Of a stretch of DNA of 54,382 bases, positions 7,693 to 54,049 are shown piece after piece. The position numbers and the translations under genes were made by a program. Under the pieces are notes generated by a model. The model searched no databases. It saw only the letters and a list, made by a program, of their open reading frames with translations, and was not told the DNA's origin. The DNA comes from an uncultured bacterium (GTDB lineage: Bacteria; Chloroflexota; Anaerolineae; J036; Brachytrichaceae). The DNA is taken from positions 1 through 54,382 of the forward strand of contig CAIXPS010000364.1 in assembly GCA_903921365.1 (NCBI GenBank), written 5' to 3'. Every line of letters begins with the position of its first letter. Position 1 is the stretch's first letter.

Positions 7693-7700
7693 TCGGGGCG

Positions 7701-7738: not shown

Positions 7739-7784
7739 CGTTAGTGCTCAAGGCGCCCAGTTTGAGGCCACGTCAAATGTGCGC

Positions 7785-8018: not shown

Positions 8019-8036
8019 GTTAAGCAACAATCTTTG

Positions 8037-8516: not shown

Positions 8517-8619
8517 ATAGCATCTCCTTAAATGCACCACAGTGCAGGTTGTATCAATTTCATCGTTGAGGATAAGGGGGGATAGCCCGCCTGGGTAGGG
8601 TCGTACGGCGCGACCGGGG

Positions 8620-8635
8620 TAGGCAATATTGCCTA
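8620..8635. promoter_or_regulatory. 16-bp perfect palindrome in divergent regulatory region
   Basis: TAGGCAATATTGCCTA is fully self-complementary and lies between the start of the PCYCGCG lipoprotein gene (minus) and the response regulator gene (plus). Nearby is a second small dyad, GGTCG/CGACC, and repeated GTAGG. The position and symmetry suit an operator, perhaps for the NarL-type regulator encoded 100 bp downstream; the regulator assignment is inference. Confidence 0.45.
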
Positions 8636-8732
8636 TACGCGGTGGGCATACTTGCGCCAGCAGACCGCTCATCTCCCTGGTGGCGCCGAGTGGCGATGGG
8701 CGATAATGGCCGTGGTTAACCACTGATAACGA

Positions 8733-35793: not shown

Positions 35794-36189
35794 TTACTTG
35801 TACCCGCACATGCGCCAGTCGCCGCGATCCTGCACGACCTTGAATTGTTTGTCCGACACGCTCCAGTCGCGCGATTCACCGTTGTAGGTGGTGACGATCT
35901 TGCCGGTGCACGCGACGAGTGTGGCGCTACCGTCCGTCCCGGCATCTTTACATGCGACGTTATCGAGCGTCGCCTTCATCGACTTGAACGACGCCGCCTC
36001 AATACGCGCCTGCGCCTCCCACGACGCGCACGACAGGCCGATCATCGTGTCCACATTGCTCTGCACGCGCGCCTGCAAATACGACTGAACGGTCTGTGCC
36101 GCACTGCCGCTACCGCCGGACTGACAGGCGGCGACGAGTGTCGCCAGCCCGAATAGAGCGATAAAGAGTATCCGCAATTGTTGTTTCAT
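35794..36189 (-). CDS. small lipoprotein
   Basis: 131 residues. Signal peptide with lipobox L-V-A-A-C, then a Gly/Ser spacer and a ~100-residue domain: a long helix with V-Q-S-Y-L-Q-A-R-V, a Cys pair (L-S-C-A-S-W and V-A-C-K-D-A), a third Cys in V-A-C-T-G and a final M-C-G-Y-K. The secondary-structure pattern (helix, then curved sheet with W-S-V and F-K-V-V-Q-D-R-G-D-W-R) resembles NTF2-like/DUF4878 lipoproteins. The function is unknown. GGGAGA precedes ATG 36189 and a TAGAAT -10-like box lies further up. It is bracketed by GAGATTG repeats and inserted between members of the SGNH family in opposite orientation. Confidence 0.8.
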   Translation of the reverse strand: MKQQLRILFIALFGLATLVAACQSGGSGSAAQTVQSYLQARVQSNVDTMIGLSCASWEAQARIEAASFKSMKATLDNVACKDAGTDGSATLVACTGKIVTTYNGESRDWSVSDKQFKVVQDRGDWRMCGYK

Positions 36190-37765: not shown

Positions 37766-39262
37766 ATGTTGCGTCGGAACAGGGTATTGATCATGATCGG
37801 AGCGGAAGCGGGGGGCATCCTCGTGCTGGTATTGCTCTATCTATTCTTCCGCATCCCGACCTCGCCGCTCAGCGTCATTCAAACGCCGGAAGCGCTGCCA
37901 ACGCCCACCGGGTTCCCCAGCGCCACACCCGCATCGACGACCATCAGCGCCATCCAGTCCACCGCCGTGCCAACGGCAACGCTTGCCGCCGCGCCCACCA
38001 TCGCCGCCATGCAGCAGTACACGGTGCAGGATGGCGACACCTTATGGGGCATCGCGGTGGATTTCCATCTCAACCTCGACGAACTGGTCGCAGCCAACCC
38101 GAAGATCAATCCCGACCAGTTGTTTCCGGGCGACATCGTCAATGTCCCCGCGCCAGGCACGGTGGACGTGTCGCAAATCACCCGCCAGCCGACGGCGCAA
38201 CCGGCGCAGATCGCCTCTGGGCTGAGCGCACAGGTGAAGATGGACACCGGCGGGTTGCGTCTGCGCAAAGGGCCGGGGCTCGATCAGGACGTGATCACCA
38301 AACTGCCCGACGCGACGCAGCTGAACCTGCTCGCGCGCACAGCCGACAGCGTGTGGCTTGAAATCAGCCTGTCCGACGGCAGCCGTGGCTGGGTGATGTC
38401 CGGGTATGTCGAAGTGAGCGGCAACCTGTCCAGCATCGCGATCGCGAAATCCGCCCCGACGCAGGGGCAACCTGCTGCAAACGCCACAGCGGCGCCGCCG
38501 CAGTCCGTGCCACGCGACGAGCCGTACCTCTCGGCAGTCAGCGCGCGAGCCGCCGCAATCTTCAAGGTGGGTCAGGCGATGGGCAACCGCGCAAATGCAT
38601 TTGCGCTTATCGGCGACAGCAATACCCAAAACCCAGCCTTCCTGCAAGCGCTCGATCAGAGCAACTACAACCTGGGCGAGTACGGCTATCTTGAAGACAC
38701 GATCAAGTTCTTCCGCGGCTCGTTTGCGCGCAGTCAGAGCAGCCCGGCTGCTGTCGGCGGATTCAACACGACTAAGGTGCTCGATCCCGCGAACACTCCA
38801 AACTGGTGCAACAAGGGCGAGACACCCCTGTCATGCGAGTTGCGCAGCACCAAACCAAGCGTGGCATTGATCCTGCTTGGCACTGGCGACCAGCACACCT
38901 GGCAGGGCTTCGAGGGGCGCTACCGGACGATCATCGAGTACACCATCAACCAGGGCGTCATCCCGGTATTGATCACCAAGGGCGACACCCTTGAGTCGCG
39001 CGACAACAACGCGACGCCGGGGTACATCAACGCGATCATCGCGCGACTGAGCCGCGAGTACGATGTGCCGTTGCTCGATCTGCACCTCGCGATTGCCAAC
39101 CTGCCCAACACCGGCTTCAACGCCGACGGGTTCCACTACAACACCCCGCCGGATGGCAAATCGTGCTATTTCCTCGGCGACTCGATGCGCTATGGCTACA
39201 CCATCCGCAACCTCACCGCACTGCAGATGCTCGACGCCATCCGCCGGCAAGTCCTGACGTAA
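37766..39262 (+). CDS. LysM-SH3b-SGNH membrane-anchored protein
   Basis: 498 residues, paralog of the preceding gene. An N-terminal membrane segment (about 6-27) without a lipobox anchors it. Then a Thr/Pro/Ala linker, LysM (about 73-122: Y-T-V-Q-D-G-D-T-L-W-G-I-A), SH3b (about 150-215: T-G-G-L-R-L-R-K-G-P-G, R-G-W-V-M-S-G-Y), and SGNH-like domain (about 265-498). Block I is G-D-S-N, block V is D-G-F-H-Y-N, but block III reads G-T-G-D, with Gly where the oxyanion Asn should be. The catalytic Ser and His are thus kept while the oxyanion hole is altered. A terminator hairpin follows at 39272. Confidence 0.88.
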   Translation: MLRRNRVLIMIGAEAGGILVLVLLYLFFRIPTSPLSVIQTPEALPTPTGFPSATPASTTISAIQSTAVPTATLAAAPTIAAMQQYTVQDGDTLWGIAVDFHLNLDELVAANPKINPDQLFPGDIVNVPAPGTVDVSQITRQPTAQPAQIASGLSAQVKMDTGGLRLRKGPGLDQDVITKLPDATQLNLLARTADSVWLEISLSDGSRGWVMSGYVEVSGNLSSIAIAKSAPTQGQPAANATAAPPQSVPRDEPYLSAVSARAAAIFKVGQAMGNRANAFALIGDSNTQNPAFLQALDQSNYNLGEYGYLEDTIKFFRGSFARSQSSPAAVGGFNTTKVLDPANTPNWCNKGETPLSCELRSTKPSVALILLGTGDQHTWQGFEGRYRTIIEYTINQGVIPVLITKGDTLESRDNNATPGYINAIIARLSREYDVPLLDLHLAIANLPNTGFNADGFHYNTPPDGKSCYFLGDSMRYGYTIRNLTALQMLDAIRRQVLT

Positions 39263-39346: not shown

Positions 39347-40405
39347 TCACTTCGTCAACGCCCACAGCATCTGCAACGTCGCCAGGATTCGCATATCTGA
39401 CCCCGCCGGCGTCATGTGGAAGTTGTCGTTGCCCTCATTGCGCAGCCCGTAGCCGGGCAAGTTGCGCGTAGCAGCCCAGAAGTCAATCACGGGGACGCCG
39501 TACTCTGCTCCAAGCTTGCGGATGACGCCGTTGATAGTCCCGCTCTTAGCTTGCGAGTGCGTCTCGAGGTCATCGGCCTTGGTCACCAGCACGGGCAGCA
39601 CATCGGCGTTCATGGTGTATTCGATGACCTTGCGGTAGTTCGTCTCAAAGTCCTGCCACGTGTACTGGTCGCCGGTGCCAAGCGCGATAAAGGCGATGCT
39701 GGCGCGCGACAGCTTCAGTTCGCAGCCCAGCGGCCCATCCTCGCCGCACAGGCTCGGATCCGTCCAGGTGGAGTCGAACATCGCTTCGGCGCCAAAGCTG
39801 CCATGCGTCGCAAGGCTGTAGCGGGAGAATGATGCGGAGAAGCGCTCGATTGTTGGCTTGAGGTACTGGTAACCCTCAGGCAGCGTGAACGTCCCGGCCG
39901 CCAACCGCCCCAGATAGGCCGTCGACTCCGAGTTGCAGTCGCCGACGACCGTGAACAGGTTCTGATCCTTACCAAGCCACCGGCTCAGGCTATAAGTGCG
40001 CCGCATAAACGGCGTCACGGCAGGGATCCAATCGGGCAGGTTGTCCGCTGCAGCGGGTTTTATCGCGGGGGTGAAATCCACAACAGGAAGCTGGCCCAGG
40101 CTCCCGCTGACGGTTCCAAAAATAGCCAGCAGCCAGGCGCCGTCGCCCGCCTTGGACACGCCGCCGAGTTGCACCCAGTTCTGATCGGCCGTGGTTGCCA
40201 CGACTCGATACTTCTGTCCAGCGAACACCGGCTGCGTGTTCGGTTCGGTCAACGCGGGATTCGCGCGCAGGAATGCGCCGCCAATGGTGACAGTGAACGT
40301 GACCGTACCGGCCGCGTTGGCGCGCTGGACAGGCGCTGTCACTGCGACCAGCGAGACAAACAAGATCACCAGAATAAAGGCGAGGCGCAGGGTATTTTTC
40401 ATCAT
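39347..40405 (-). CDS. exported SH3-like/SGNH-like protein with GDC motif
   Basis: 352 residues. Signal peptide (about 1-31, ending A-N-A-A). An SH3-like beta domain follows (about 33-110: F-L-R-A-N-P, Y-R-V-V-A-T-T, W-V-Q-L-G-G). The C-terminal SGNH-like domain (about 155-350) has block I V-V-G-D-C-N-S (Cys for Ser), block III G-T-G-D-Q-Y-T-W (Gly for Asn) and block V N-D-N-F-H (Asp and His kept). There is no lipobox. Its ATG overlaps the stop of the upstream paralog by 1 nt (TAATG), so the two are translationally coupled. A thiol nucleophile or a non-catalytic role is possible. It is convergent with the LysM-SGNH pair. Confidence 0.85.
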   Translation of the reverse strand: MMKNTLRLAFILVILFVSLVAVTAPVQRANAAGTVTFTVTIGGAFLRANPALTEPNTQPVFAGQKYRVVATTADQNWVQLGGVSKAGDGAWLLAIFGTVSGSLGQLPVVDFTPAIKPAAADNLPDWIPAVTPFMRRTYSLSRWLGKDQNLFTVVGDCNSESTAYLGRLAAGTFTLPEGYQYLKPTIERFSASFSRYSLATHGSFGAEAMFDSTWTDPSLCGEDGPLGCELKLSRASIAFIALGTGDQYTWQDFETNYRKVIEYTMNADVLPVLVTKADDLETHSQAKSGTINGVIRKLGAEYGVPVIDFWAATRNLPGYGLRNEGNDNFHMTPAGSDMRILATLQMLWALTK

Positions 40406-41496
40406 TACCTTGAAATCGCATCAAGCGTTTGGAGCGTCGCGACCAGGTGCATGTCCTGGCCGGCCTGGCTGAGGTGGAAGTTCAACCCGCCCTCGTTGAT
40501 GAGGCCGTTGTTTGGCAACGCGCGGGTGGCCTGCCAGAAGTCCAGCAGGGGCACGTTGTACTCATCAGCCAGGGTGCGGATGACGCTGTTGATGTAGCCG
40601 CTTGGGGCGCCGTTGCGGGCTTCCAGGTCGTCAGCCTTGGTCACAAGGACCGGCAGCACGCCCTTCTTGAGCGCATGTTCGACCAGCGGACGATAGTTCT
40701 TCTCGAAATCCTTCCACTCATACTGGTCGCCCGTGCCGACTTCGATGAAGATCACGCTGGCGCGCGACACCCACACCTCACAGGCGAACGGCCCGACATT
40801 TTTGTCGCACAGCGCGTGATCAGCCCAGTCTGAATCGGACATCGCCGCGGCATTGAAGCCGCCATTGACCGCCAGGCTGATGCGGGTGAACGAGGGGGTG
40901 AAACGATCCGCCACCCACCCCAAACCAGTGTAGTCAGTGACATCGAACTGACCCGCCGCAACCCTTTGCAGGTACACGGGCGGGAGCGAGTTGCAGTCGC
41001 CCACAACCGTGAACATGTGCAGGTCCTTGGCGTAGTCGACGCTGCCGCGATAAATCGCCTTCTGATCTGCGGTGATCGTCGGAATCCAGTCGGGGTAATA
41101 GATCGCGCGGTGGTACGGGTGAACCACGTCGAGCGTCAATGGCACGGGCGCGTCGCTGAGCTTGCCCTGCGTGACCACGCCGAGATTGGTCATGATCCAC
41201 GTCCCGGCGTCCTTCTCGGCGCCGGTTGCCAGTTCGACCCACACACTGTCATTGCTGCGGGCGATAACGGTATAGAACTCACCCTTGTATACCGGATAGG
41301 TGCTCGACGCAATGAGGCTGGGCTGATCGCGCAACCATACCAGCGGCGTCGTGATCGTATAGCGGACGATCCCTGCCGCTGTGGTCACCCTGGCCGGCAG
41401 GGTCAAAACGAACACACAAGCGAGCGCGAGCACGAGCACGAGTCCCGCCTGCAATACATGCATTCTATTGGCTGATAAGGTCGATCTCATGCTCAT
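40405..41496 (-). CDS. exported SH3-like/SGNH-like protein with GDC motif
   Basis: 363 residues, paralog of the downstream gene. N-terminal signal/anchor (about 10-40), SH3-like domain (about 43-120: V-W-L-R-D-Q-P, Y-T-V-I-A-R-S), SGNH-like domain (about 160-362). Block I is V-V-G-D-C-N-S, block III is V-G-T-G-D-Q-Y-E-W, and the end has G-L-N-F-H-L-S, where the Asp normally three residues before His is missing. Both nucleophile and Asp are therefore altered. The start could be ATG 41496 or 41490; a weak GAGG lies upstream of the first. The tnpB element ends or begins within ~20 bp of this start, so its promoter may have been displaced or supplied by the insertion. Confidence 0.83.
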   Translation of the reverse strand: MSMRSTLSANRMHVLQAGLVLVLALACVFVLTLPARVTTAAGIVRYTITTPLVWLRDQPSLIASSTYPVYKGEFYTVIARSNDSVWVELATGAEKDAGTWIMTNLGVVTQGKLSDAPVPLTLDVVHPYHRAIYYPDWIPTITADQKAIYRGSVDYAKDLHMFTVVGDCNSLPPVYLQRVAAGQFDVTDYTGLGWVADRFTPSFTRISLAVNGGFNAAAMSDSDWADHALCDKNVGPFACEVWVSRASVIFIEVGTGDQYEWKDFEKNYRPLVEHALKKGVLPVLVTKADDLEARNGAPSGYINSVIRTLADEYNVPLLDFWQATRALPNNGLINEGGLNFHLSQAGQDMHLVATLQTLDAISR

Positions 41497-41596
41497 GAGG
41501 TTGCCTCGCGGGAAACCGCGGTCTTTAGGCCGGGGACGCCCGGCGAAGCGAGCGGCGCAAGCTGTTCTGCTGCTTTCAATACTTGAGGAATCATGC

Positions 41597-41602
41597 TATA
41601 AT
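41597..41602 (+). promoter_or_regulatory. -10 box of tnpB
   Basis: Perfect TATAAT ending 7 nt before GTG 41610. No convincing Shine-Dalgarno fits before GTG. This implies a leaderless mRNA. No good -35 at the usual distance. Confidence 0.55.
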
Positions 41603-41609
41603 TACTCCT

Positions 41610-42707
41610 GTGAAACTGACCGCACAAATCAAGCTTCAACCCACGACAGAACAAGCGGACGCTTTGAAACGCACGCTTGAAACTGCAAACGCTGCGTGCA
41701 ACTACATCAGCAGCGTGGCGTGGCAGAACAAGACATTTGGTCAGTACAAACTGCACCACTTGGTTTATGCGGATGTGCGTGCTAAGTTTGGCTTGTCCGC
41801 ACAGATGACTGTCCGTTGCATAGCAAAGACTGCCGACGCCTACAAGCTCGACAGAGAAACCGAGCGCACCTTCAAACCAACCGGGAGCATCGCTTACGAC
41901 GAACGTATCCTCAGTTGGAAGATCAAGCTGTCTATCGTTTCCATCTGGACGATGGATGGACGCATGTCCATCCCGTTCGTGTGTGGTGAACGTCAACGCG
42001 AATTGTTGCAGACACGCCAGGGCGAATCTGACCTCGCAACAGCCAACGGAAATTACTTTCTGTTTGCTACTTGCAATGTTGAAGAACCCTCGCCGATTGA
42101 GTTTACCGATGTGCTTGGAGTGGACACCGGCATCGTCAATATCGCTACTGACTCCGATGGTGAGGTTCACAGCGGCAAGACAATCAACAACGTTCGTTCT
42201 CGTCATCGTCGCCTGCGCCAGAAACTTCAGCGTAAAGGCACGAAGTCGGCTAAACGTCGTGTGCGTAAACTCAGCGGTAAAGAACAACGGTTTGGAAAGT
42301 GGGTTAACCACAACGTCAGCAAACGTATCGTTGCTAAGGCTCAACACACCGGACGCGCAATTGCCCTCGAAAACCTCGAAGGGATACGCGACCGGGTAAG
42401 GGTTCGGAAGCCTCAGAGAGCAACGCTGCATAGCTGGTCGTTCCACCAGCTTCGCACCTTTATCGAGTACAAGTCGCAACGCGCTGGCGTGACCGTGATT
42501 CTGGTTGATCCCAGAAACACAAGTCGCACTTGCCCGTCCTGCGGATGTATTAATAAAGCTAATCGTCGTACTCAATCTAATTTCACCTGTGTAACCTGCG
42601 GTTTCTCTGGACTTGCAGACCACATCGCTGCTGGAAATATTTCTAGCAGGGGCGTTGTAAATCGCCCATACGTCCCGGATCGCCTGGGACAAAGCTCCGG
42701 GTTTTAA
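41610..42707 (+). CDS. tnpB: TnpB RNA-guided nuclease of IS200/IS605 family
   Basis: 365 residues from GTG 41610, the start matching the usual TnpB N-terminus (V-K-L-T-A-Q-I-K-L-Q-P-T). It has an N-terminal helix-turn-helix, a RuvC-like nuclease with Asp in L-G-V-D-T-G-I, Glu in A-L-E-N-L-E-G-I-R-D, and Asp in L-A-D-H-I-A-A-G-N, and a zinc ribbon C-P-S-C-G with C-V-T-C-G-F. All catalytic residues are present, so it is probably active. TnpB proteins cut DNA guided by an omega-RNA made from the element's right end; the stop codon sits in the right-end hairpin, as expected. The gene itself may promote retention of the element in the genome. Confidence 0.93.
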   Translation: MKLTAQIKLQPTTEQADALKRTLETANAACNYISSVAWQNKTFGQYKLHHLVYADVRAKFGLSAQMTVRCIAKTADAYKLDRETERTFKPTGSIAYDERILSWKIKLSIVSIWTMDGRMSIPFVCGERQRELLQTRQGESDLATANGNYFLFATCNVEEPSPIEFTDVLGVDTGIVNIATDSDGEVHSGKTINNVRSRHRRLRQKLQRKGTKSAKRRVRKLSGKEQRFGKWVNHNVSKRIVAKAQHTGRAIALENLEGIRDRVRVRKPQRATLHSWSFHQLRTFIEYKSQRAGVTVILVDPRNTSRTCPSCGCINKANRRTQSNFTCVTCGFSGLADHIAAGNISSRGVVNRPYVPDRLGQSSGF

Positions 42708-42734: not shown

Positions 42735-43850
42735 CTAGAACCCCGCGATGGCTTTAAGCGTCTGGAGCGTCATAAACATGCGCATGTCCATGCCTTGCTC
42801 ATTGAGGTGAAACGAGTTGGTGGCTTTCTGCGCATCATTGCGCTCGACGAGCATCCCGTTGTTTGGCAGGGTGCGCGTGGCGAGATAGAAATCGATCACC
42901 GGCACGTTATAGGCAACACCCAGGCTGCGGATCACATTATTTATGTAATCAGCAGGCGCGCCGCCCTCGAGCGAGTCGAGCGAGTCAGCCTTCGTCATCA
43001 ACACAGGCAGGACGCCCTGGTTGAGGGTGTATTCGATGATGGCGCGGTAGTTGGCCGCAAAGTTGCGCCAGTCATGCTGGTCGCCGGTGCCGACAGCGAT
43101 CACCAGAATACTGGCCTTGGACATGCGCAACTCACACGCCAGCGGGCCTTCATCGCCGCCGCATTGCTTTGGATCGGACCAGGTGGAGTCGAACGCCATG
43201 GCAGTGTTAAAGCTGCCGCGCGTCGCCAGGCTGGTGCGGCTGAAAGACTCGGTGAACCAGTTGGCGGTGTACGCGAGTTTTGGGTCGCTGCTGGTATCGA
43301 AGCCGCTGGCGGCGAAACGACCCAGGTACACGGCGTATTCAGAGTTGCAATCACCGATGACGGTGAAGATGCTGGTATCCCTGCCCGCCCACTTGCTCGC
43401 CTGATAGAGATAGCGCTGATGCCAGTTCACATACGGCAGCCCCTGCGGCAGTTCTTTAATTACTGCTACCTTGGCGACCGCCTTGTCCATAATTGGCAGA
43501 GATGTATAGTCGCCCTGGATGCGCATTGATCCATAATGAATCCAGGCCAGTGAATCCCCGAACGGGATGAGCAGCCATTCGTTATTGCTGCTGCGACCTT
43601 TCACGTCGTAACATTCCCATTTGAGAACGCGACCGACGGTGCCTTTTTCCCAGTTAGCAGCGCCGTAAACATATGCGCTGTCGAGGTCGACCATGATCTG
43701 TACAGTGACGTTCGGGTCGCTGGAAGGTGAGCAGATGAAAGGCAGCTGAACCACGGTCTTGGCGGCAACAGGAATCGCGGTCATCAGCATAACCGCCGCC
43801 AGCGGAAGTGAGAGTAACCGATACAGCCACTTTATCCTCATATTATTCAT
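42735..43850 (-). CDS. exported SGNH-like protein with GDC motif
   Basis: 371 residues from ATG 43850, chosen because AGGAGA sits 4-5 nt upstream; a longer frame to 43895 lacks such a site. Signal peptide (about 1-30, ending V-A-A-K). An SH3-like domain is less clear (about 40-120: N-E-W-L-L-I-P-F-G-D). The SGNH-like domain has V-I-G-D-C-N-S in block I, V-G-T-G-D-Q-H-D-W in block III and N-S-F-H-L-N in place of block V. Cys replaces Ser, Gly replaces Asn, and no Asp sits before His. The paralogs' common stretch D-x-x-W-S-D-P-K-Q-C-G-G, then G-P-L-A-C-E-L is present. The tnpB element lies immediately downstream. Confidence 0.85.
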   Translation of the reverse strand: MNNMRIKWLYRLLSLPLAAVMLMTAIPVAAKTVVQLPFICSPSSDPNVTVQIMVDLDSAYVYGAANWEKGTVGRVLKWECYDVKGRSSNNEWLLIPFGDSLAWIHYGSMRIQGDYTSLPIMDKAVAKVAVIKELPQGLPYVNWHQRYLYQASKWAGRDTSIFTVIGDCNSEYAVYLGRFAASGFDTSSDPKLAYTANWFTESFSRTSLATRGSFNTAMAFDSTWSDPKQCGGDEGPLACELRMSKASILVIAVGTGDQHDWRNFAANYRAIIEYTLNQGVLPVLMTKADSLDSLEGGAPADYINNVIRSLGVAYNVPVIDFYLATRTLPNNGMLVERNDAQKATNSFHLNEQGMDMRMFMTLQTLKAIAGF

Positions 43851-44083
43851 GCATTCTCCTGACATTACATGCTGAGATACGTTCCCGCACCACAACGACG
43901 ATCTGCGATACCTGCCCTGATGAGTAAGGCAGCAACAATCTGGTCGACATCATAAACAATATTATCGAATACGCCCCCTCACGTCAAGCAAGGTGCAATT
44001 TAACTCTACATGTTATGTATGAGAATGGTGTGTGTCTGCCAGGACGCCAGGACGCGGAAAACCATGGCTGCATTGTGTCTTGA

Positions 44084-44834: not shown

Positions 44835-46553
44835 TCATGGCGTCACTTCGGGAGTCTGGTTTTCCGCCAGGTATTTGTCGCGGTTGGCGGCGTGGGCGAT
44901 CTTGCCGCTGCTGGTCTTCAGCAGCCAGCGCGGCTCAACGATGCGGACCACGCGCAACGCGACATCCGAGCTTTGGGTGACATACCGCCGGACGGCGTCG
45001 CCGATGGCATCGCGCTCGATCTCGTCGGTCGTGTCGACCTCTGCCACCACCACTACATCTTCAGTGCCTGCGTCGGCATTCAACACGCCAAACGCCACCA
45101 CTCGTCCGGGATGCACCCCCGGCACTTCACCAGCCAGCCGTTCCAGGTCCTGCGGGTACACGTTCTTACCGCCCACGATGATCAGGTCTTTCTTGCGCCC
45201 GGTGACGTACAGTTCGCCGCTGGCGAGGTAGCCCAGGTCGCCCGTGAGATACCACCCGTCATCAAAAGCCTTGCTGGTGATATCAGGACGGTTGTAATAG
45301 CCGGTTAACATGCAGTCGCTTCGTAACGCGATCTCGCCAATCGCGCGATCGGGCAGGTCGTGGTGTTGACCATCAATGCTCGCCGTATCCTCAACGACGC
45401 GCACTTGAACGTTTGGCAGAGGACGACCAGCAGTGAGTAACTTCATCCCGCTTACGCCATCTGCGGGCGGTCGGGCAACGCGCTCGATCAGCAAACCACG
45501 CTGATCAATCTCGTCCACGGTCACAGGCGCGTCGATGCCGGCCTGCGTCACCGCGAAGACGTTCTCGGCCATCGCATAACACGTCGTCAGCGCCCCAGCC
45601 CTCAACCCATATTGGGCATACCGACCGAGGAACGCCTGATGACTCGCCCAATAGGTTGGCTCGGAGCAGTTGATCAGCGCGCGCACGCTGGACAGGTCAA
45701 TCCCAGCCAGGTCGCGGTCGCGAATCTTCTGCGCGCAAAAGTTGTAGGCGAAGTTAGGCAGCCACGCCAGCGTGCCGCGATACCGGGTGATCGCGTGCAG
45801 GAGTTTGTATGGCGCGCGCACCCAGTCGAACGGCGACAGAAGCACCAGCGGCACGCGCGTGAGGATGGGCATGATGAACGAGGCGATCAGACCCATGTCG
45901 TGATACAGGGGCAGCCAGCTCACAACCACATCATCCTGCGTCAGATGAATCGCGCGCGCGTAATGGTCGAGTTGGCTGAACACCGCCCGGTGCGACAGCG
46001 CCACACCCTTCTGCAGCCCAGTCGTCCCCGACGAGTGCTGCAACAGGACGATATCATCCGGCGCGCGCTCCAGCCCACCCAGCCCGTCGAAGTCTGGTTC
46101 ACATGCGCTGACATCTGCTGAGACGACGAGTGGTGGGCGCTTCGTTTGCACCGACAACGCACTGAGTGCGCCACTGATCTCACCTGCGAACTCAGGGTAG
46201 GTCACGATGGCCGCCGGGCGGGTGGTCTCAATCAGCGCGGTCAGGTCCTGGCGGTAGCGTTCCGGGGCGAGCTTCTCAGTGAGGAACGGCATGATCGCGG
46301 GCACTGCCCCATGCAGCACCGCGCCCCAGAAGGCAACCATCAACTCGGCGCTGTGTTGCACGATGACGATGACTACATCGCCCGCGCCGACGCCCGCAGC
46401 CTGCAACGCGCGCGCATACCCGGCCCCGCCAGACAGCAGTGCGCGATACGTGATCGGCGCGTCCTCCTGGCGATTTTGCAGCAGGTGTATCGCGACGCGG
46501 TCGGGACACTCAGCGTAAGCGCGCTGAAGGACGTGTGAGAAGGTGGGCATCAT
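44835..46553 (-). CDS. fatty-acyl-AMP-ligase-like adenylating enzyme (DltA-position)
   Basis: 572 residues (or 571 from the second ATG, better spaced from GAGAGG). ANL-superfamily adenylation enzyme: P-loop H-S-S-G-T-T-G-L-Q-K-G (about 173), W-L-P-L-Y-H-D-M-G-L-I (about 213), T-G-D-L-G-Y, G-R-K-K-D-L-I-I-V-G-G-K-N, and A10 Lys in T-S-S-G-K-I-A-H-A. The Y-H-D-M-G-L-I motif is typical of fatty-acyl-AMP ligases, which load acyl groups onto acyl carrier proteins rather than CoA. Its ATG overlaps the stop of the ACP gene (ATGA), and the ACP is the obvious acceptor. Position in the operon matches DltA of the teichoic-acid system. The acyl substrate is not predictable here. Confidence 0.92.
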   Translation of the reverse strand: MMPTFSHVLQRAYAECPDRVAIHLLQNRQEDAPITYRALLSGGAGYARALQAAGVGAGDVVIVIVQHSAELMVAFWGAVLHGAVPAIMPFLTEKLAPERYRQDLTALIETTRPAAIVTYPEFAGEISGALSALSVQTKRPPLVVSADVSACEPDFDGLGGLERAPDDIVLLQHSSGTTGLQKGVALSHRAVFSQLDHYARAIHLTQDDVVVSWLPLYHDMGLIASFIMPILTRVPLVLLSPFDWVRAPYKLLHAITRYRGTLAWLPNFAYNFCAQKIRDRDLAGIDLSSVRALINCSEPTYWASHQAFLGRYAQYGLRAGALTTCYAMAENVFAVTQAGIDAPVTVDEIDQRGLLIERVARPPADGVSGMKLLTAGRPLPNVQVRVVEDTASIDGQHHDLPDRAIGEIALRSDCMLTGYYNRPDITSKAFDDGWYLTGDLGYLASGELYVTGRKKDLIIVGGKNVYPQDLERLAGEVPGVHPGRVVAFGVLNADAGTEDVVVVAEVDTTDEIERDAIGDAVRRYVTQSSDVALRVVRIVEPRWLLKTSSGKIAHAANRDKYLAENQTPEVTP

Positions 46554-46795
46554 TGCCTCTCGACAATAATCGCGGTCAACTGCTCGATCGTGTCGAACGT
46601 CTCTTTGTTCAATTCGGCGTCGTCGATGCGCACGCCGAACTTGTCCTCAACGAACAAGCCCAGGTCGACAAGGTGAAAGGAGTCAATCAAGCCGCTGGAA
46701 ATCAGCGGGGCGTCGGGAGCGATCACGCGTTTAGGTTGTTGCAGTATCTCTTTGGCGATGTACTGCGCCAGTGCTGTGCGAATCTCGGTTGTCAT
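46550..46795 (-). CDS. acyl carrier protein (DltC-position)
   Basis: 81 residues, normal ACP length. Phosphopantetheine attachment Ser39 in G-L-I-D-S-F-H-L-V-D-L (the usual D-S-L reads D-S-F). It has four-helix ACP spacing and ends with T-I-E-Q-L-T-A-I-I. It should carry an acyl thioester made by the adjacent adenylating enzyme and hand it to the MBOAT at the membrane. It overlaps both neighbours by 4 bp. Confidence 0.93.
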   Translation of the reverse strand: MTTEIRTALAQYIAKEILQQPKRVIAPDAPLISSGLIDSFHLVDLGLFVEDKFGVRIDDAELNKETFDTIEQLTAIIVERQ

Positions 46796-47949
46796 GGTGT
46801 GCTGATTTTACCCAACTGTGTGACGGCGTCAGCGAGCCGGTCGGCCAGCAGCTTTGCCCCGGCCGGTGTGTAGTGCACGGCGCTGTTGGTAAACTCACTC
46901 ATCGGCAGCAAATCCCACGCGTCGATATAGTTCCAGCCCTGCGCCGTCGCCTGCGCGATCATGGCGGCGCGGTACTGATCGTAGGCCCAGCGCGGGTAGA
47001 AGAAGTTGTAGCGGATATCGCTGTTGCGTCCGTTCGAGCGCAGGATCGGCTCGTTGACGATCAACAGCGGCGTCTTGCCAGCAGCGCGGACGCCCGCCGC
47101 GAGTGCATCGAATGCCAGGTCGGCGTCGCCAAACGCCGGCGGCTTGTGGCCATGGAAGGCGTCATCGGGGTCGAGGTCGATGGCCGCTGGCTCATAATCG
47201 GCGGGATAGTCCTGATCGATACCGGTGGCCGCCCACATGACGCCATACAACTGCAGGCGCGCGAGATCGGCCAGATCGCGACGTCGGCCGATAATCGTGC
47301 GGTCAAGCAATGATGGCGTGACAAACTGGGGATCGTTCGGGTCAAGCTTCAGCCCGTACCGGGCGATCAGGTCGCGCGTCGGGGCAGGGTTATTCTGCAG
47401 CAGCGGGTGGAACAACTGCTTGTCGGCGGGGAAGGATTCGAGCGTGACCAGCCACACGACCGCATCGGGTTGCCAGGCGGCGCGCATGGCGCGGTCGAGA
47501 ATCAGCACGTCCTTCGCCAGCGACATGATCGGGTAGCCAAGGTTGTAGGCGCGCACCGTCCGTCCGTCGGCTGTTGTGAGCCTGGCGCGGTTGATCTGCC
47601 CGGCCAGCGTGTCGGCGGGCTTGAGCAGCCAGCCCCATGTGGACGAGTCGCCGATCAACAGCACGCGGAACTCACTGGCCGGCTTCGTCCCTGCCGCGAT
47701 CTCATGCGAGGCGAACATCGCGTCGAGGTTGAGCACGCTGACGTTATAGGCGCGCTCCGGATGATCGCCATAGGGCAGGCGTGACCGGCCGGGAAACAGG
47801 ATGTTGTACGCGGAGACGCGCCCCAGCCCCGCTGCCGGATCGGCCAGGATGAAGATGAGGTTGAAAACAAGAAACAGAAACAACGCCTTGCCCAGCACCT
47901 GCAGCGCTGCCCTGCTACTCAATTGTTGAGTTTCGTTTGTATTGGACAC
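46792..47949 (-). CDS. membrane-anchored SGNH/AlgX-DltD-like protein
   Basis: About 385 residues from GTG 47949, 20 bp after the MBOAT stop; an ATG at 48039 would extend 30 residues into the MBOAT gene and is less likely, but the start is uncertain. A membrane anchor (about 15-37, F-L-F-L-V-F-N-L-I-F-I-L) is followed by an extracytoplasmic SGNH domain: V-L-L-I-G-D-S-S-T-W-G-W (block I Ser), N-L-G-Y-P (block II Gly), and S-A-V-H-Y-T-P-A-G near the end (His), with Asn where an Asp is usual. Single-span SGNH proteins next to an MBOAT typically move acyl groups to a polymer acceptor (DltD, AlgX/AlgJ, PatB). It overlaps the ACP gene by 4 bp. Confidence 0.88.
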   Translation of the reverse strand: MSNTNETQQLSSRAALQVLGKALFLFLVFNLIFILADPAAGLGRVSAYNILFPGRSRLPYGDHPERAYNVSVLNLDAMFASHEIAAGTKPASEFRVLLIGDSSTWGWLLKPADTLAGQINRARLTTADGRTVRAYNLGYPIMSLAKDVLILDRAMRAAWQPDAVVWLVTLESFPADKQLFHPLLQNNPAPTRDLIARYGLKLDPNDPQFVTPSLLDRTIIGRRRDLADLARLQLYGVMWAATGIDQDYPADYEPAAIDLDPDDAFHGHKPPAFGDADLAFDALAAGVRAAGKTPLLIVNEPILRSNGRNSDIRYNFFYPRWAYDQYRAAMIAQATAQGWNYIDAWDLLPMSEFTNSAVHYTPAGAKLLADRLADAVTQLGKISTP

Positions 47950-47969
47950 CGTTAATTCGTGTTTGATTT

Positions 47970-49490
47970 CTATCCTCCAACCAGTCGCCGAAACACAGTC
48001 AGCGACAGGTCGATGCTGGGCAGCGCAAACCAGACCCAACCGAGTGCGACGAAATTGAAGGTAGCGACGACACTAAGCACAGTCACAACGCGCCGGCGAA
48101 CGGGCGACTGCGGCGTCGGTTCAGCATCCGTAGATGCGTTGCGCCGGCGCGCGAACTCGGCCCAGCGGTTGTGCGCGAACAACCCGAAGGCGTGCCATGC
48201 GCCCCACACGACAAAGTTCCATGTGATGCCGTGCCACAGCCCGATCAACAGCATGGTCGTCACCTGACCAAATAGAATGATGAAAGCCGGTTGTCTGAAG
48301 AACCCCTGCGCGGGCAGAAAGTGCGTCTCTCTAGGGCTGCGCAACGCGCGCGTGACCGGGTTGAAGAAGTAGGCGCGGAACCACTGCGACAGCGACATGT
48401 GCCAGCTGTTCCAGAACAGCGTCAAGTTGGACTTGAGATAAGGTCGATCAAAGTTCTCCGGGAGCTTGATCCCAAACAGCCGCCCCAGCCCGATGGCGAT
48501 ATCTGTGTAGCCGCTGAAGTCGAAGAAGATGCGCAGCGCGTAGGCGTACACGATCACCCACATCCAGATCGTCGCGTTGACCTGCGCGGCGTTGACCGCG
48601 TTGAGCGCCACGATCGCGAGCGTATCGGCAATGACGAATTTCTTGAAGACGCCGAGGAGGATGCGGCTTACACCCGCGACGACGGATGCCGTGTCCATCG
48701 GCAGGACGGTCGTATTGCGATAGTCTTTAACGAAGCGATCAGCGCGGTCGATTGGCCCGGCGGTGAGTGCGGGGAAGAACACCACGTAGCTCACGAATTC
48801 GCGCAGTGTGAGGCCGGCGGGCGCTGGTTTCCCGGGCGCCGGCGGACGCGCGGTGACTCGGTCGCGCAGGGCATGGATCAGTCGAAACGCGATGTAGCTG
48901 AAGCCCAGCCAGCGCACATCGAGCGCCGATGCCTGCGCCATATCCTGCCCGTTCAATCCGCGCAAAACAGCGCTGAGCGCCTGCGTCGCGACATCCAGCT
49001 TCAGGATGACAAAGGCGGCGATGACGCCTAATACCAGCCAGTTCAACCAACGCGTTCTGCCGCGAAACAGGAGAGTTGCGCCGGCAATCAGCGCGGCAAC
49101 GATGACCCCTCCGAACGCGACGGTGACAATATCCGGCGGGCGCGTCGGTGTGACGCAGCACAGCGGGTCGATATAGCGGGTCAACGCGATGAAGGCGACG
49201 ATGCCAATGATGACAGCTCCCGCCGGGAGCGCCGCGCGCCACTCGGCTCGGCGCGGCGCGTAAATTGCCGCCCACACGATCACCGTCAACCCGATCGACG
49301 CCGTCGGCAGCCAGAAATCGAGCGAGCGGATCGGGCTGGAGGATTGAAGCCAGTACACCGCGACCACGCTGGCCGCCAGCATCACCCATCCGCGTGCGCG
49401 CATAGCGCGCACACGCGCGCGGTCCCAGGCGCAGGCCAATCCAACGATCAGCGACAGTGCGGCAAAGGCGAGGATTTGCGTCAGGTTCAT
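47970..49490 (-). CDS. MBOAT-family O-acyltransferase (DltB/AlgI type)
   Basis: 506 residues, multi-spanning (about 11 helices). Signature segments: F-F-P-A-L-T-A-G-P-I-D-R, F-D-F-S-G-Y-T-D-I-A-I-G, E-N-F-D-R-P-Y-L-K-S-N, F-W-N-S-W-H-M-S-L-S, and the catalytic His in G-L-W-H-G-I-T-W-N (about 418). Members carry acyl groups from cytoplasmic carriers to extracytoplasmic acceptors. The start ATG 49490 directly follows the stop of the 47-residue microprotein, and it is followed by the SGNH gene. Together with the ACP and ligase this completes an acylation chain. Confidence 0.95.
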   Translation of the reverse strand: MNLTQILAFAALSLIVGLACAWDRARVRAMRARGWVMLAASVVAVYWLQSSSPIRSLDFWLPTASIGLTVIVWAAIYAPRRAEWRAALPAGAVIIGIVAFIALTRYIDPLCCVTPTRPPDIVTVAFGGVIVAALIAGATLLFRGRTRWLNWLVLGVIAAFVILKLDVATQALSAVLRGLNGQDMAQASALDVRWLGFSYIAFRLIHALRDRVTARPPAPGKPAPAGLTLREFVSYVVFFPALTAGPIDRADRFVKDYRNTTVLPMDTASVVAGVSRILLGVFKKFVIADTLAIVALNAVNAAQVNATIWMWVIVYAYALRIFFDFSGYTDIAIGLGRLFGIKLPENFDRPYLKSNLTLFWNSWHMSLSQWFRAYFFNPVTRALRSPRETHFLPAQGFFRQPAFIILFGQVTTMLLIGLWHGITWNFVVWGAWHAFGLFAHNRWAEFARRRNASTDAEPTPQSPVRRRVVTVLSVVATFNFVALGWVWFALPSIDLSLTVFRRLVGG

Positions 49491-49634
49491 CTAGAAGCCC
49501 TGATAGATCCACTGCGGGGCGCTGTCGGCGGTGGCGATCACCACCGCGATGAGGATGAGGCAGATCGCGAGCGCGATCAAGTTCTCGCGCGAGAAAACGC
49601 GCCGAAGCAGTGCGTTGCGATGCGGGTCGTTCAT
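49491..49634 (-). CDS. 47-residue single-span microprotein with C-terminal W-I-Y-Q-G-F (DltX-like)
   Basis: Short gene starting at ATG 49634 with GAGG 6 nt upstream, 2 bp after the preceding stop, and ending immediately before the MBOAT start (TAG then ATG). Residues 1-18 are basic (R-N-A-L-L-R-R-V-F-S-R), 19-35 form one hydrophobic span, and the last residues are W-I-Y-Q-G-F, so the C-terminus is outside. DltX of Gram-positive bacteria is also ~50 residues with one span and, as I recall, ends F-I-Y-N-E-F; its C-terminal Tyr carries the acyl group between DltB and DltD. Here Tyr44 is in the same relative place. Identification rests on size, topology, tail and operon position, not alignment. 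Confidence 0.75.
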   Translation of the reverse strand: MNDPHRNALLRRVFSRENLIALAICLILIAVVIATADSAPQWIYQGF

Positions 49635-49636
49635 TC

Positions 49637-50422
49637 TCAGCCTCGGCGCGCCACTTCGCCAGCAAACGCCTGCGCAAACGCATGCGGCAGGGTCGGGCCG
49701 CAACAGTTGAAAACCAGACCGTCCAGCGACATGCGGCTTAACCCGTCAAACAGGTTGGGGCCGTCGATGATGCGCATTTGCACGGAGTCCTTTTTCTCCT
49801 GATCGAGGTACGCCTCTGCAGCATCGTCGGCCGTGAACAGCGCAGCCAGCCTGCGACCTTTGCCGTCTGGCGCGAGTGCAAGATACTCGCCGCCGTCCTC
49901 GCGGATCATGCCGATGTAATACGACTGATATGCCTTGATGACGTCATACCCCTTGTCGGTCGCGAGAATTGTTTCGATCGCCTGCTCCACGCGGAGGACT
50001 TTTCCCCAGTCGCGCAGCGCGGGAACCTGCTCCCTTGTGTAGTGAATCTCATTTGGCGAGTACGGGTTGATGTTGACAAAGTCAACCGCATCATCCAGCA
50101 CTTCCCACGCGTTGTAGCCATAGATGTTGTCGATGGTATACGCGCCCATCGCCTCATCGCCGATCTTAGCGCGGCAATCGAGATAGGCCTGTTTGTCGCT
50201 GAACATGAAGAAGTGGCAATCCGTCCCACCGAAGCGAATTTTGATAAAGGTGGGATCGCCGCCGTTTGCGGTATCAAAGACCGCGGGAACGATCCAGCCG
50301 CGATGGCTGGCAAGCCCACGCATCAACTGTGCGCCGGTCAAGGTGTGTTGAAAGAACTGGTCAACCGCAACGCGCGGGTCAAACGTATCCGCCACAGGAA
50401 ACCTCCAGATTTCTACCGTCAT
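49637..50422 (-). CDS. uncharacterised protein with two SseB-like repeats
   Basis: 261 residues, no signal peptide. Two similar halves: about 70-130 (F-M-F-S-D-K-Q-A-Y-L-D, later A-W-E-V-L-D-D-A-V-D-F-V-N-I-N-P) and about 195-250 (L-F-T-A-D-D-A-A-E-A-Y-L-D, later L-D-G-L-V-F-N-C-C-G-P). The pattern, a short strand pair with F-(T/S)-D then a helix and L-D-G-(V/L)-V-x-N, resembles SseB N-terminal domains, so I suggest a tandem SseB-like protein with low certainty. It lies between an ABC exporter gene (18 bp) and the DltX-like gene (2 bp), so it is likely part of the same transcript. A cytoplasmic adaptor role is possible. Confidence 0.6.
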   Translation of the reverse strand: MTVEIWRFPVADTFDPRVAVDQFFQHTLTGAQLMRGLASHRGWIVPAVFDTANGGDPTFIKIRFGGTDCHFFMFSDKQAYLDCRAKIGDEAMGAYTIDNIYGYNAWEVLDDAVDFVNINPYSPNEIHYTREQVPALRDWGKVLRVEQAIETILATDKGYDVIKAYQSYYIGMIREDGGEYLALAPDGKGRRLAALFTADDAAEAYLDQEKKDSVQMRIIDGPNLFDGLSRMSLDGLVFNCCGPTLPHAFAQAFAGEVARRG

Positions 50423-50440: not shown

Positions 50441-52267
50441 TCAATGCTCGCCAACCATCTGTGCGCGGCACAACCGGGCATAGTATCCACCCGGCATATT
50501 CACCAGCGATTCGTGGTTGCCGATCTCGACGATCTTGCCTTCCTTCAATACAACAATCTGGCTGGCCTTGCGGATCGTCGACAGGCGGTGAGCGATGACA
50601 ATAGCCGTGCGCCCTTTCATCAGCCGCTCCAACGCTTCCTGGATCAGCATTTCCGTCTGCGTATCGACAGCCGACGTCGCTTCGTCCAGCACCAGGATGG
50701 GTGTATCGGCCAGGATGGCGCGCGCGATTGAGATGAGCTGCCTCTGCCCTCCCGAGAACTGCGAGCCGCGCTCGTGCGCCAGCGTCTCGTACCCCTCTGA
50801 CAACTGCGACAGGAAGTCGTGACAGTTCGCCATCTTCGCCGCCTCGATCACCTCGGCCAGCGTCGCATCCGGCCGTCCATAGCGGATGTTGTTAAAGATC
50901 GTGTCGGTGAAAATGAACGGTTCCTGCATCACCACGGCGATTTGCGAGTGCAACGACTTCTGCGTGACCGATCGGATGTCATGTCCGTCGATCAGGACGC
51001 GCCCGCCCGTGACATCGTAGAAACGGTTGATCAGGCTGGAGATCGTGGTCTTGCCCGATCCGGTCTGGCCGACCAGCGCCACCAGTTGCCCGGCCTCAAT
51101 GTTCAGGTCTATGTCGTGCAATACGTTGCGCGTCCCATCGTAGCTGAACGCGACGTGGTCAAGGGTGATCGATCCTTTTACCGGCGGCATGACCGACGCG
51201 TTCGGCGCATCCATCACCTTTGGCAGTGTGTCGAGCAGTTCGAATATCTTCTCGGCGGAGGCCATCGTCGCCTGCAGCACCAGGTACACATTCGTGAACG
51301 TGCTGATCGGTCCCCACAGCGCGTTGATGTACGAGGTGAATGCAACCAGTGTGCCGACTGTCAATGTCGTAGTCAGCCCGATCTGGTAAGAGGCCACATA
51401 CAACACAGCGGCCAGCCCGGCGGCGCGCGTGATCTCAACGATCGGGCCGAGTCGCGCTGACAGGTTGGTCACATCGAGCCACGAGCGCACCAGCGTGTCG
51501 TTGGAACTGCGAAATTGCTTATAGTTCGTCGCCTCGCGCACGAATGCCTGGATGACGCGCATGCCGGAGATGTTTTCCGCCAGGAAGATGTTGAAGCGCG
51601 TGTTGTACTCGCGCACTACTTCCCAGCCCTCATGAATGCGCGGGCGCAGCGTAGCCGCGGCGATGACAAGGATCGGCAGCGTGATCAGCGCAACCAGCGC
51701 CATGCCGGGGTCAATGACAAACATCAGGATGATGATGATCACCGCCGAGGCGGCGTCGTGAAACAGCATCGCGATCTGGTTAGTCAGGAAGTCGTTCAGC
51801 GTAGAGACGTCGCTGAGAAAGCGGCTCATTGTCTTGCCGACCGGCCACTGTTCGTGAAAGTTGAAGGACAGGCGCTCGACGTGATGGAATAACTGACTGC
51901 GCAGGTCAAACAGCAGATCCTGGCTGATGCGCGTGATCGACAGTGAGCGCGCCATGAAGCCGGCCATGTTGATCGCATGCAGAATAACGGCGCCGATGAC
52001 GACGACGTAGAAGCCCTGGTCGATGAACTTCACCGCGATGTAATTGTCGATCAGGATGCGGTCGATGAACGGGTAAAACTGCGCGATCGTGACGCAAACC
52101 ACATAGATGCAGATCGTCAGGAACATGCGGCGGCGATAGGGTTGCAGGTAGGTCAACAACCGTCCGATCACCTGGCGCGGCGGCAATGACGATACAACCA
52201 GCTTCTTCTTAGCGGGTTTGTCCGGCTGCGGCGTGCTTGAATTCGTTTTGCTAATCGTTCTCAGCAT
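50441..52267 (-). CDS. ABC exporter half, canonical NBD (partner of the next gene)
   Basis: 608 residues. N-terminal cytoplasmic tail (~45 residues, K-P-A-K-K-K), six-helix transmembrane domain, and an ATPase with Walker A G-Q-T-G-S-G-K-T-T, signature F-S-G-G-Q-R-Q-L, Walker B I-L-V-L-D-E with catalytic Glu, and H-loop I-A-H-R-L-S-T. Its start directly follows the stop of the upstream exporter gene (TAAATG), so they are co-translated. The partner has Asp instead of the Walker B Glu; together they should form a heterodimeric exporter with one degenerate site, like TM287/288 or BmrCD. Cargo unknown; the downstream acylation genes suggest a lipid-linked or envelope precursor. Confidence 0.93.
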   Translation of the reverse strand: MLRTISKTNSSTPQPDKPAKKKLVVSSLPPRQVIGRLLTYLQPYRRRMFLTICIYVVCVTIAQFYPFIDRILIDNYIAVKFIDQGFYVVVIGAVILHAINMAGFMARSLSITRISQDLLFDLRSQLFHHVERLSFNFHEQWPVGKTMSRFLSDVSTLNDFLTNQIAMLFHDAASAVIIIILMFVIDPGMALVALITLPILVIAAATLRPRIHEGWEVVREYNTRFNIFLAENISGMRVIQAFVREATNYKQFRSSNDTLVRSWLDVTNLSARLGPIVEITRAAGLAAVLYVASYQIGLTTTLTVGTLVAFTSYINALWGPISTFTNVYLVLQATMASAEKIFELLDTLPKVMDAPNASVMPPVKGSITLDHVAFSYDGTRNVLHDIDLNIEAGQLVALVGQTGSGKTTISSLINRFYDVTGGRVLIDGHDIRSVTQKSLHSQIAVVMQEPFIFTDTIFNNIRYGRPDATLAEVIEAAKMANCHDFLSQLSEGYETLAHERGSQFSGGQRQLISIARAILADTPILVLDEATSAVDTQTEMLIQEALERLMKGRTAIVIAHRLSTIRKASQIVVLKEGKIVEIGNHESLVNMPGGYYARLCRAQMVGEH

Positions 52268-54049
52268 TTAGTCCACTCTTAACGTGTTGACCGGATCGGG
52301 CGCGCGATTGAGCACTTCTTCCATCGATTCGGCGGCAGTCATCCGCTGCAACTCCAGGACGTGCTGGTAATAACCGCCCCCGCGCAACAGCTCCTCATGC
52401 GTGCCCTGTTCAAATATCGCGCCTTCGCGCAGCACGATGATATGGTCGGCCTTCTGCACGGTGGACATGCGGTGCGCGATCAGGATCGTGGTGCGCCCCT
52501 GCATGACCGAGCTAATCGCATCTTGCAACAGGCGTTCGGTTTCGGCGTCCACCGCCGACATAGAGTCGTCAAGAATCAGGATTCTCGGGTTGAGCAGAAT
52601 TGCGCGCGCGATGGCGATCCTTTGGCGTTGTCCGCCGGACAAACCAGTGCCGCGCTCGCCGATCAGTGTCTTGTAGCCTTCGGGCAGGGCGGTGATGAAG
52701 TCGTGCGCCTGGGCCAGCCGCGCCGCGCGCTCAATTTCGTCCTGCCCGGCATCGGGTCGCCCGAGCGCGATGTTGTCGCCAATAGAGGCAGAGAACAAGA
52801 GCCCATCCTGCGCGACGATGCCGACCTGGCGGCGCAACTCGTCAAGGTTGAGCGAGCGCACGTCGTGGCCGTCCACCAGCACACGGCCCGATGTCGTGTC
52901 GTAGAAGCGGCCAAGCAGGTTCACCAGCGTGCTCTTGCCGGCGCCAGTCGCGCCAACCAACGCCAGTGAAGTGCCTGTAGGCACATGCAGGTTGATATCC
53001 TTCAACGCGTGCGCTTTAGCTGTGGCATATTTGAAGCTGACATTTTCGTAGCGCACGTCGCCGCGAATTTCGCCCAGTTTCTCCGCATGCTCCGGCGACT
53101 TGATGCGCACAGGCTCATCCAGCATTTCGAAGATGCGCACGGCGGCTGTGGAGGTCTGGCCGAGTGCGGTCAACTGCGTGCCAAGTGAGTTAGCGGCGCC
53201 CAGCATCAGGCCGGTGTAGCTGATTGACGCGACCAGCGTGCCCAGTGTGATGCCGCCGTTGATCACCTGATACCCGCCAACAATGATCAGCGTCAATTGC
53301 ATCAGGCGCGGGATGGCCGCAATGAACGGGTAGCGCGAGTACCAGCGTTGGTTAGCGAGCACATTCAGCCGGCGCAATTCACTCACCGCTTTTTCGTACT
53401 TGGTCTGCTCCTGCGGTTCCTGCGCGAATGACTTGACCACTTTGATCCCCGACAGACTGTCCTGCAGCACGCTGGACGCGACCGCGTTCTGCTCCTGAAT
53501 GTTGCGGTTGATCGAACGCCAGCGCTGATACAGGATGTACAGCGTGATGCCGGAGAGGACTGTCGGGACAATGGCAATGCCAGCCATCGTCGCATCCAGC
53601 GTGATCAACGCGACCAGCATGACGATGATGACCGTCACTTGCAGCGTCGCATCGATGAGGATGAAGGCGAGGAACACGCGCGTGCTCTCGACATCACTCG
53701 TGATGCGCGACATCAGCCGGCCGGTCTGCTCATTGTCGTAGAAACCGTAAGACAGCGCCAGCAGTTTCTTGTACAACGCAGTGCGGATATCGGTGATCAC
53801 CACTTGCCCGAGACGCTCGCGGTCGCGGCCATAGAAATACTGCGCGATGGCGCGGATCAGGGCGACGCCGAAGAGAAACGCGATGTAACCAGGCAGCAGA
53901 CCGATTTGCTTGCCTGCGATGACGTCATCAACAATGGCTTTGGTGACGACCGGGGCTACCGTCATCAGCCCCGCCAGCGCCAGGTTGAGAATAGCCAACC
54001 ACAGCACCAACGACCAGTGAGGCTTTAAAAAGCCTAACAACCTTCTCAT
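52268..54049 (-). CDS. ABC exporter half, degenerate NBD
   Basis: 593 residues. Six-helix transmembrane domain and ATPase with Walker A G-A-T-G-A-G-K-S-T, signature L-S-G-G-Q-R-Q-R, Walker B I-L-I-L-D-D (Asp where the catalytic Glu is normal) and H-loop I-A-H-R-M-S-T. An Asp here marks the degenerate ATP site of heterodimeric exporters; the mate is the next gene, which keeps the Glu. The start ATG 54049 has only a poor Shine-Dalgarno. Upstream lies a remnant of a GH43-like gene, so the promoter of the whole operon is not obvious. Confidence 0.93.
   Translation of the reverse strand: MRRLLGFLKPHWSLVLWLAILNLALAGLMTVAPVVTKAIVDDVIAGKQIGLLPGYIAFLFGVALIRAIAQYFYGRDRERLGQVVITDIRTALYKKLLALSYGFYDNEQTGRLMSRITSDVESTRVFLAFILIDATLQVTVIIVMLVALITLDATMAGIAIVPTVLSGITLYILYQRWRSINRNIQEQNAVASSVLQDSLSGIKVVKSFAQEPQEQTKYEKAVSELRRLNVLANQRWYSRYPFIAAIPRLMQLTLIIVGGYQVINGGITLGTLVASISYTGLMLGAANSLGTQLTALGQTSTAAVRIFEMLDEPVRIKSPEHAEKLGEIRGDVRYENVSFKYATAKAHALKDINLHVPTGTSLALVGATGAGKSTLVNLLGRFYDTTSGRVLVDGHDVRSLNLDELRRQVGIVAQDGLLFSASIGDNIALGRPDAGQDEIERAARLAQAHDFITALPEGYKTLIGERGTGLSGGQRQRIAIARAILLNPRILILDDSMSAVDAETERLLQDAISSVMQGRTTILIAHRMSTVQKADHIIVLREGAIFEQGTHEELLRGGGYYQHVLELQRMTAAESMEEVLNRAPDPVNTLRVD

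Follow-up and report, generated by a model that had tools for sequence, protein, structure and literature searches.

A Candidate Dlt-Like Acylation Cassette with a FAAL-Type Ligase in Anaerolineae (Chloroflexota)

How might a bacterium of the Chloroflexota attach acyl groups to its envelope? The question is raised by five consecutive genes in the genome of an uncultured bacterium (GenBank assembly GCA_903921365.1, contig CAIXPS010000364.1), of which a stretch of 54,382 nucleotides, here called the window, was analyzed. Read on the minus strand from 49634 to 44835, the genes encode a microprotein, an MBOAT, a membrane-anchored SGNH protein, an acyl carrier protein (ACP) and an adenylating enzyme of the fatty acyl-AMP ligase (FAAL) type, and an original prediction, made from the letters alone, had compared them to the parts of the Dlt system. 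Our analysis indicates, with a probability of roughly 0.8, that this cassette encodes a Dlt-like relay for trans-membrane acylation, supplied by the FAAL, and is a variant of the MBOAT-SGNH-acyl-shuttle class. It suggests how covalent acylation of the envelope might come about in Chloroflexota, where canonical outer-membrane genes are lacking and layers of polysaccharide or protein have been suggested (PMC13319060), and it provides a delimited set of genes, with one invariant tyrosine among the encoded residues, that is open to direct testing.

The Five-Gene Cassette and Its Host

All five open reading frames (ORFs) are present where they had been predicted. The microprotein (47 residues, single-pass and DltX-like, 49491..49634) stands first, and its stop codon directly abuts the ATG of the DltB-like MBOAT (TAGATG; 506 residues, 47970..49490). 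The anchored, DltD-like SGNH protein (385 residues, 46792..47949), the ACP (81 residues, 46550..46795) and the FAAL-type ligase (572 residues, 44835..46553) follow on the same strand, with 4-nucleotide overlaps at the SGNH/ACP and ACP/FAAL junctions. Overlapping or abutting ends had been claimed for four of the five genes; the MBOAT/SGNH junction is probably a short gap. The mechanically assigned start of the SGNH gene, a TTG at 48039, overlaps the MBOAT gene, and the alternative GTG at 47949, located 20 nucleotides past the MBOAT stop, is preferred because it better fits the homologs. In searches of Pfam and NCBIfam, AMP-binding, PP-binding (PF00550, for the ACP) and MBOAT matches were above the cut-off and the SGNH match was sub-threshold. 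A scan for promoters and terminators gave a signal no higher than in shuffled sequences.

The host genome comprises 6.9 Mb in 603 contigs. Closest to it are an uncultured bin (69%), Candidatus Roseilinea and a Thermoflexales genome, followed by Anaerolineales, which places the host in the class Anaerolineae and agrees with the phylum Chloroflexota named at the outset.

Co-Inheritance Across Chloroflexota

In a large part of the class Anaerolineae, the cassette genes are inherited together. Their distribution was surveyed over 400 Chloroflexota genomes for the MBOAT and the microprotein, and over 55 Anaerolineae (34 with the cassette and 21 others) for the SGNH protein, FAAL and ACP. A DltB-like MBOAT was called at a score of at least 267 bits, the next-best genome reaching at most 157 bits, and was found in 34 of the 400 genomes. 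The 71 MBOAT-positive genomes of a first tally fell into these two score groups and were therefore rejected as one system; the lower group was set aside because its sampled members were AlgI/PatA-like with fused tyrosine motifs. The microprotein occurs in the identical 34 genomes and convincingly in none without the MBOAT, and the two are thus conserved together (34/34), a point on which the predicted system had been staked. The SGNH protein was found in the same 34 Anaerolineae and in none of the 21 others, the FAAL in 31 of 34 versus 1 of 21 (Fisher p ∼7e-11), and a strong ACP match in 30 of 34 versus 1 of 21, with three further divergent ACPs; the p-values for co-occurrence range from ∼1e-15 to 4e-10, all of them uncorrected for kinship.

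More weight than these p-values is carried by genomes in which the genes are scattered. In G349 all the genes are retained although they are spread over four contigs (one each for the microprotein, the MBOAT-SGNH pair, the FAAL and the ACP), in G283 the cassette genes are unlinked yet retained, and in G046 and G372 the SGNH, ACP and FAAL genes are clustered with each other but away from the MBOAT.

A separate occurrence was noted on a 212-kb plasmid of Leptolinea sp. HRD-7 (L080, AP024711.1), where positions 7374-9353 hold a member of a lipoprotein-like family (c5, see below), the microprotein and the MBOAT, annotated as hypothetical; no SGNH, ACP or FAAL gene was present within the 17-kb stretch examined.

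Microprotein, MBOAT and Anchored SGNH Protein

The microprotein is a real gene and not a chance reading frame, because its C-terminus is invariant across 38 loci and its co-occurrence with the MBOAT over the 400 genomes is exact. In 36 of 40 loci its gene immediately precedes that of the MBOAT, and all 38 homologs gathered end in [W/F]IYQGF, with W usually in first position (WIYQGF with Tyr44 in the window). Its net charge is positive on the N side and negative on the C side, a distribution consistent with a C-terminal tail outside the cell. In Dlt, the microprotein carries a C-terminal FXYXXF hexapeptide whose tyrosine ferries D-alanine from DltB to DltD (PMC12148441); the motif of DltX has been given as FLYFGF (PMC11035591), and in the two dlt operons compared here, of Staphylococcus aureus and Listeria, DltX ends in FIYNEF. 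The link between the microprotein and DltX is one of motif, topology and context, not of detectable sequence homology: HHalign of the microprotein family against the S. aureus and Listeria DltX gave a probability of about 2%, and a profile search of the PDB with the microprotein returned nothing relevant. Weak matches to the microprotein outside Anaerolineae (G086 and G274; 21.6 bits, within ORFs of ∼820 residues) were judged to be due to chance.

The only NCBIfam match of the MBOAT is LTA_dltB (TIGR04091), at 215.5 bits and below the cut-off of 375, and the DltB structures 6bug and 8jem were retrieved from the PDB with E ∼1e-39. His364 and His420 are invariant in 41 MBOATs and sit in the same motifs as the aligned active-site histidines of DltB, which are numbered 289 and 336 (PMC11035591). 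None of the 41 cassette MBOATs carries a fused C-terminal tyrosine motif, versus 7 of 7 AlgI/PatA-type MBOATs of related Chloroflexota loci; these seven lower-scoring proteins group separately, and each of them terminates in F[IVM]YxxF, as PatA-type MBOATs do. In a small tree, a supported branch divides the AlgI-type paralogs from a side that holds DltB together with the cassette MBOATs, which, in a tree with no outside root, shows a separation from the AlgI type and not a descent from DltB. Aside from the cassette, the ends of the AlgI/PatA-type MBOATs (F[IVM]YxxF at L051, L074, L075, L076, L077 and L078) are of interest in themselves, since a fused acyl-shuttle motif, as far as these sequences tell, seems to be common in such MBOATs of Chloroflexota.

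For the SGNH protein, an AlphaFold model (predicted local distance difference test, pLDDT, of 92) comprises an N-terminal helix (residues 12-36) and an SGNH domain. When aligned with VIA-align, four DltD structures matched this model with Z 14.1-14.5 across 275-289 residues, nearly its whole length, most of the ordinary SGNH hydrolases listed with Z 12-14 across 165-230 residues, and CgnD with Z 15.6 across 219 residues. A DltD-like protein is the best whole-length reading of the model, Z alone being unable to separate it from other SGNH folds. Ser102 of the GDS motif and His359 are invariant; a PDB profile search with the protein gave nothing relevant. Three features of the MBOAT-SGNH acyl-shuttle transferases are therefore found in these proteins, namely invariant active-site histidines in the MBOAT, catalytic serine and histidine with a membrane anchor in its SGNH partner, and a C-terminal hexapeptide of the FxYxxF type with an invariant tyrosine.

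The Carrier Protein and the FAAL-Type Ligase

Ser39 of the ACP, within the motif GLIDSF, had been singled out in the prediction and is invariant in 27 sequences. Compared with the DltC models TIGR01688 and PRK05087, the ACP scored 24.5 and 26.9 bits, below the cut-offs of 52.35 and 68, respectively.

The signature YHDMGLI, on which the assignment of the ligase to the FAALs had been based, is present in the window, and Y217-G221 and I223 are invariant in 26 homologs, as is the motif SSGK (Lys551). The best NCBIfam matches of the ligase include fatty acyl-AMP ligases, and its nearest structures, by sequence and by fold, are 3pbk, 3kxw, 7r7e and FadD32. A segment at ∼338-375 that DltA does not have can be aligned with 3kxw and 3pbk with no large gaps, which fits the FAAL insertion. 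The ligase thus appears FAAL-like in its fold, its closest structures and this insertion, and is classified here, from sequence comparison and structure models, as FAAL-type.

Proposed Mechanism and Alternatives

For a cassette whose parts, residues and co-inheritance are observed, Dlt and PatA provide the analogy for each chemical step of the following scheme. The FAAL, going by its family, would adenylate a carboxylic acid, for which a fatty acid or something similar is the likeliest choice, and load it as a thioester onto the phosphopantetheine of ACP Ser39. The MBOAT, with His364 and His420, would move the acyl group from the acyl-ACP to Tyr44 of the extracellular WIYQGF, as modeled on DltB/DltX and PatA. 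From the acyl-tyrosine tail, the group would pass to the anchored SGNH protein and, through an acyl-Ser102 intermediate, to a hydroxyl group on a glycan of the envelope or on a related surface molecule. In most cassette genomes, a family of secreted SGNH proteins (see below) might then act on the product, as transferases or esterases.

Several observations weigh against this scheme. The Pfam model of DltX (PF12459) matched nothing in the host genome nor any of 15 microproteins, that of DltD (PF04914) nothing in the host genome nor any of 31 SGNH proteins, and no TagF-type polymerase family was found in the host genome. The pattern of co-inheritance is broken by G055, which has the microprotein, MBOAT and SGNH protein with no FAAL or ACP match, and by G224, of the same genus label, which has a FAAL and an ACP without the other three. 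The structure matches of the ligase further include 6ulx, a keto-acid-selecting domain, and with keto-acid selectors among FAAL-like enzymes the acyl chain could be short or unusual.

A fatty acyl group is the somewhat favored cargo, another acid being possible. The alternative that survives best leaves the relay as it is and replaces the long fatty chain by a small or polar acid (a hydroxy-, keto- or short-chain acyl group). This is a possibility we take seriously but consider the less likely one: DltB handles the small D-alanyl group and the MBOAT keeps the active-site residues of DltB, and keto-acid-selecting domains stand among the FAAL relatives in the PDB, but the closest curated models and structures of the ligase are fatty acyl-AMP ligases, which are active on medium to long chains.

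The acceptor is probably a wall or surface glycan. Five LCP-family proteins are encoded in the host genome, and in other bacteria proteins of this family join glycopolymers to the wall. Two ABC exporters upstream and several secreted proteins close by in the host genome might instead point to acylation of a surface lipid, glycolipid or protein, which we regard as unlikely, since other genomes do not conserve the ABC genes together with the cassette and known MBOAT-SGNH pairs act on polymers (PMC12148441).

It is also conceivable that the FAAL and ACP serve some other pathway, of lipids or polyketides, and merely adjoin an MBOAT-SGNH pair fed by acyl-CoA. In several genomes neither of them is linked to the MBOAT, and G055 and G224 make the pattern imperfect; the strong enrichment of the FAAL in cassette genomes, however, and the SGNH-ACP-FAAL block found apart from the MBOAT in G046 and G372 render this very improbable.

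Comparison with Known Acylation Systems

Least probable of all is the reading as a true but diverged Dlt system, with D-alanine as the group esterified to teichoic acids, since, for all its agreement with the same five functional parts, the DltB match of the MBOAT and the DltD-like SGNH fold, it is contradicted by a ligase that is a FAAL and not DltA, by unmatched DltX and DltD, by DltB and DltC scores below the curated cut-offs and by the missing TagF-type polymerase. What the FAAL-fed relay shares with Dlt is a carrier-protein donor, an MBOAT with two active-site histidines, a separate microprotein of the FxYxxF type, a DltD-like anchored SGNH protein and a compact operon. It differs in its Chloroflexota host, in the gene order X-B-D-C-A and in the place of DltA, where the best curated models and structures indicate a FAAL and not a D-alanine-specific ligase. 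By these sequence comparisons, the cassette is not a Dlt system as curated models define it, and the predicted Dlt part list remains valid as an analogy but not as family membership.

In PatA/PatB- and AlgI/AlgJ-type O-acetylation systems, an MBOAT passes the acyl group to the tyrosine of an extracellular C-terminal hexapeptide and from there to the SGNH serine (PMC12148441), the same relay as that proposed here. Their donor is acyl-CoA and the tyrosine motif is fused to the MBOAT, whereas the cassette has an ACP and a separate microprotein. Loading pairs of FAAL and ACP (FadD32, FadD28 and the olefin synthase FAAL) resemble the cassette in ligase family and carrier-protein partner. These pairs feed cytoplasmic polyketide or lipid synthesis, whereas the partner genes of the cassette are of a type that moves acyl groups outside. 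The secreted SGNH family linked to the cassette may be compared to FmtA and DltE, which are likewise secreted enzymes downstream of acyl transfer but belong to other protein families, the linked proteins being of the SGNH type and mostly GDC.

MBOAT-SGNH pathways other than Dlt have neither a carrier protein nor a separate microprotein (PMC12148441). The cassette has both and thus has the appearance of a second branch beside Dlt that is fed from a carrier and shuttles through a microprotein. In a search limited to open-access literature, and hence weak as evidence of absence, no such cassette and no DltB described in Chloroflexota was found, in line with what had been supposed, and no FAAL tied to MBOAT-SGNH pairs.

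Secreted SGNH Proteins and Other Neighboring Genes

An accessory family of secreted SGNH proteins, linked to the cassette, is present in the window in six copies located from 34.6 to 43.9 kb. Three on the minus strand (39347-40405, 40405-41496 and 42735-43895) have GDC in place of GDS; on the plus strand lie a GDC protein (∼34655-35647) and two proteins with LysM, SH3 and GDS (36295-37743 and 37766-39262). The family occurs in 26 of the 34 cassette genomes versus 1 of the 21 other Anaerolineae, and its genes are located between those of the anchored SGNH protein and the ACP in many loci. In block I, 27 of 35 members have GDC and the other 8 have GDS. The eight cassette genomes without the family have a diverged SGNH protein or one encoded elsewhere, and they share an alternative gene context, from which it seems that two cassette subtypes exist. 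No SGNH acyltransferases with a cysteine nucleophile were found in the open-access literature. It is tempting to speculate, although we hold this to be rather doubtful, that a system widespread in Anaerolineae takes long fatty acyl chains from an ACP loaded by the FAAL and exports them through the tyrosine microprotein to an extracellular glycan, giving a covalently lipidated surface on which cysteine-nucleophile SGNH proteins transfer or edit acyl groups.

Between two of the secreted SGNH copies lies a gene of the TnpB/IS605 OrfB type with a Cas12f1-like TNB domain (41583-42707, plus strand). Upstream of the cassette and on its strand, a gene for a 261-residue protein without family match (49637-50422) lies 2 nucleotides from the microprotein and would belong to the operon by its spacing; it was found elsewhere only in the closest relative (L002). 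The two ABC exporter genes follow directly (50441-52267 and 52268-54049, minus strand) and, as already said of them, are not conserved beside the cassette in other genomes. The exporters and the 261-residue gene were rejected as core parts for this lack of conservation.

The c5 family, to which a lipoprotein-like protein of 131 residues in the window (35794..36189, minus strand) belongs, comprises proteins of ∼130-170 residues with a lipoprotein-like N-terminus, whose genes immediately precede that of the microprotein in about 20 loci (e.g., L004, L009, L040, L043 and L050); two members were scanned and had no Pfam match. Divergently beside c5, a conserved multi-span membrane protein of ∼233 residues is encoded in L049, L050, L051, L052, L056 and L074, which by eye resembles a phytol/dolichol kinase.

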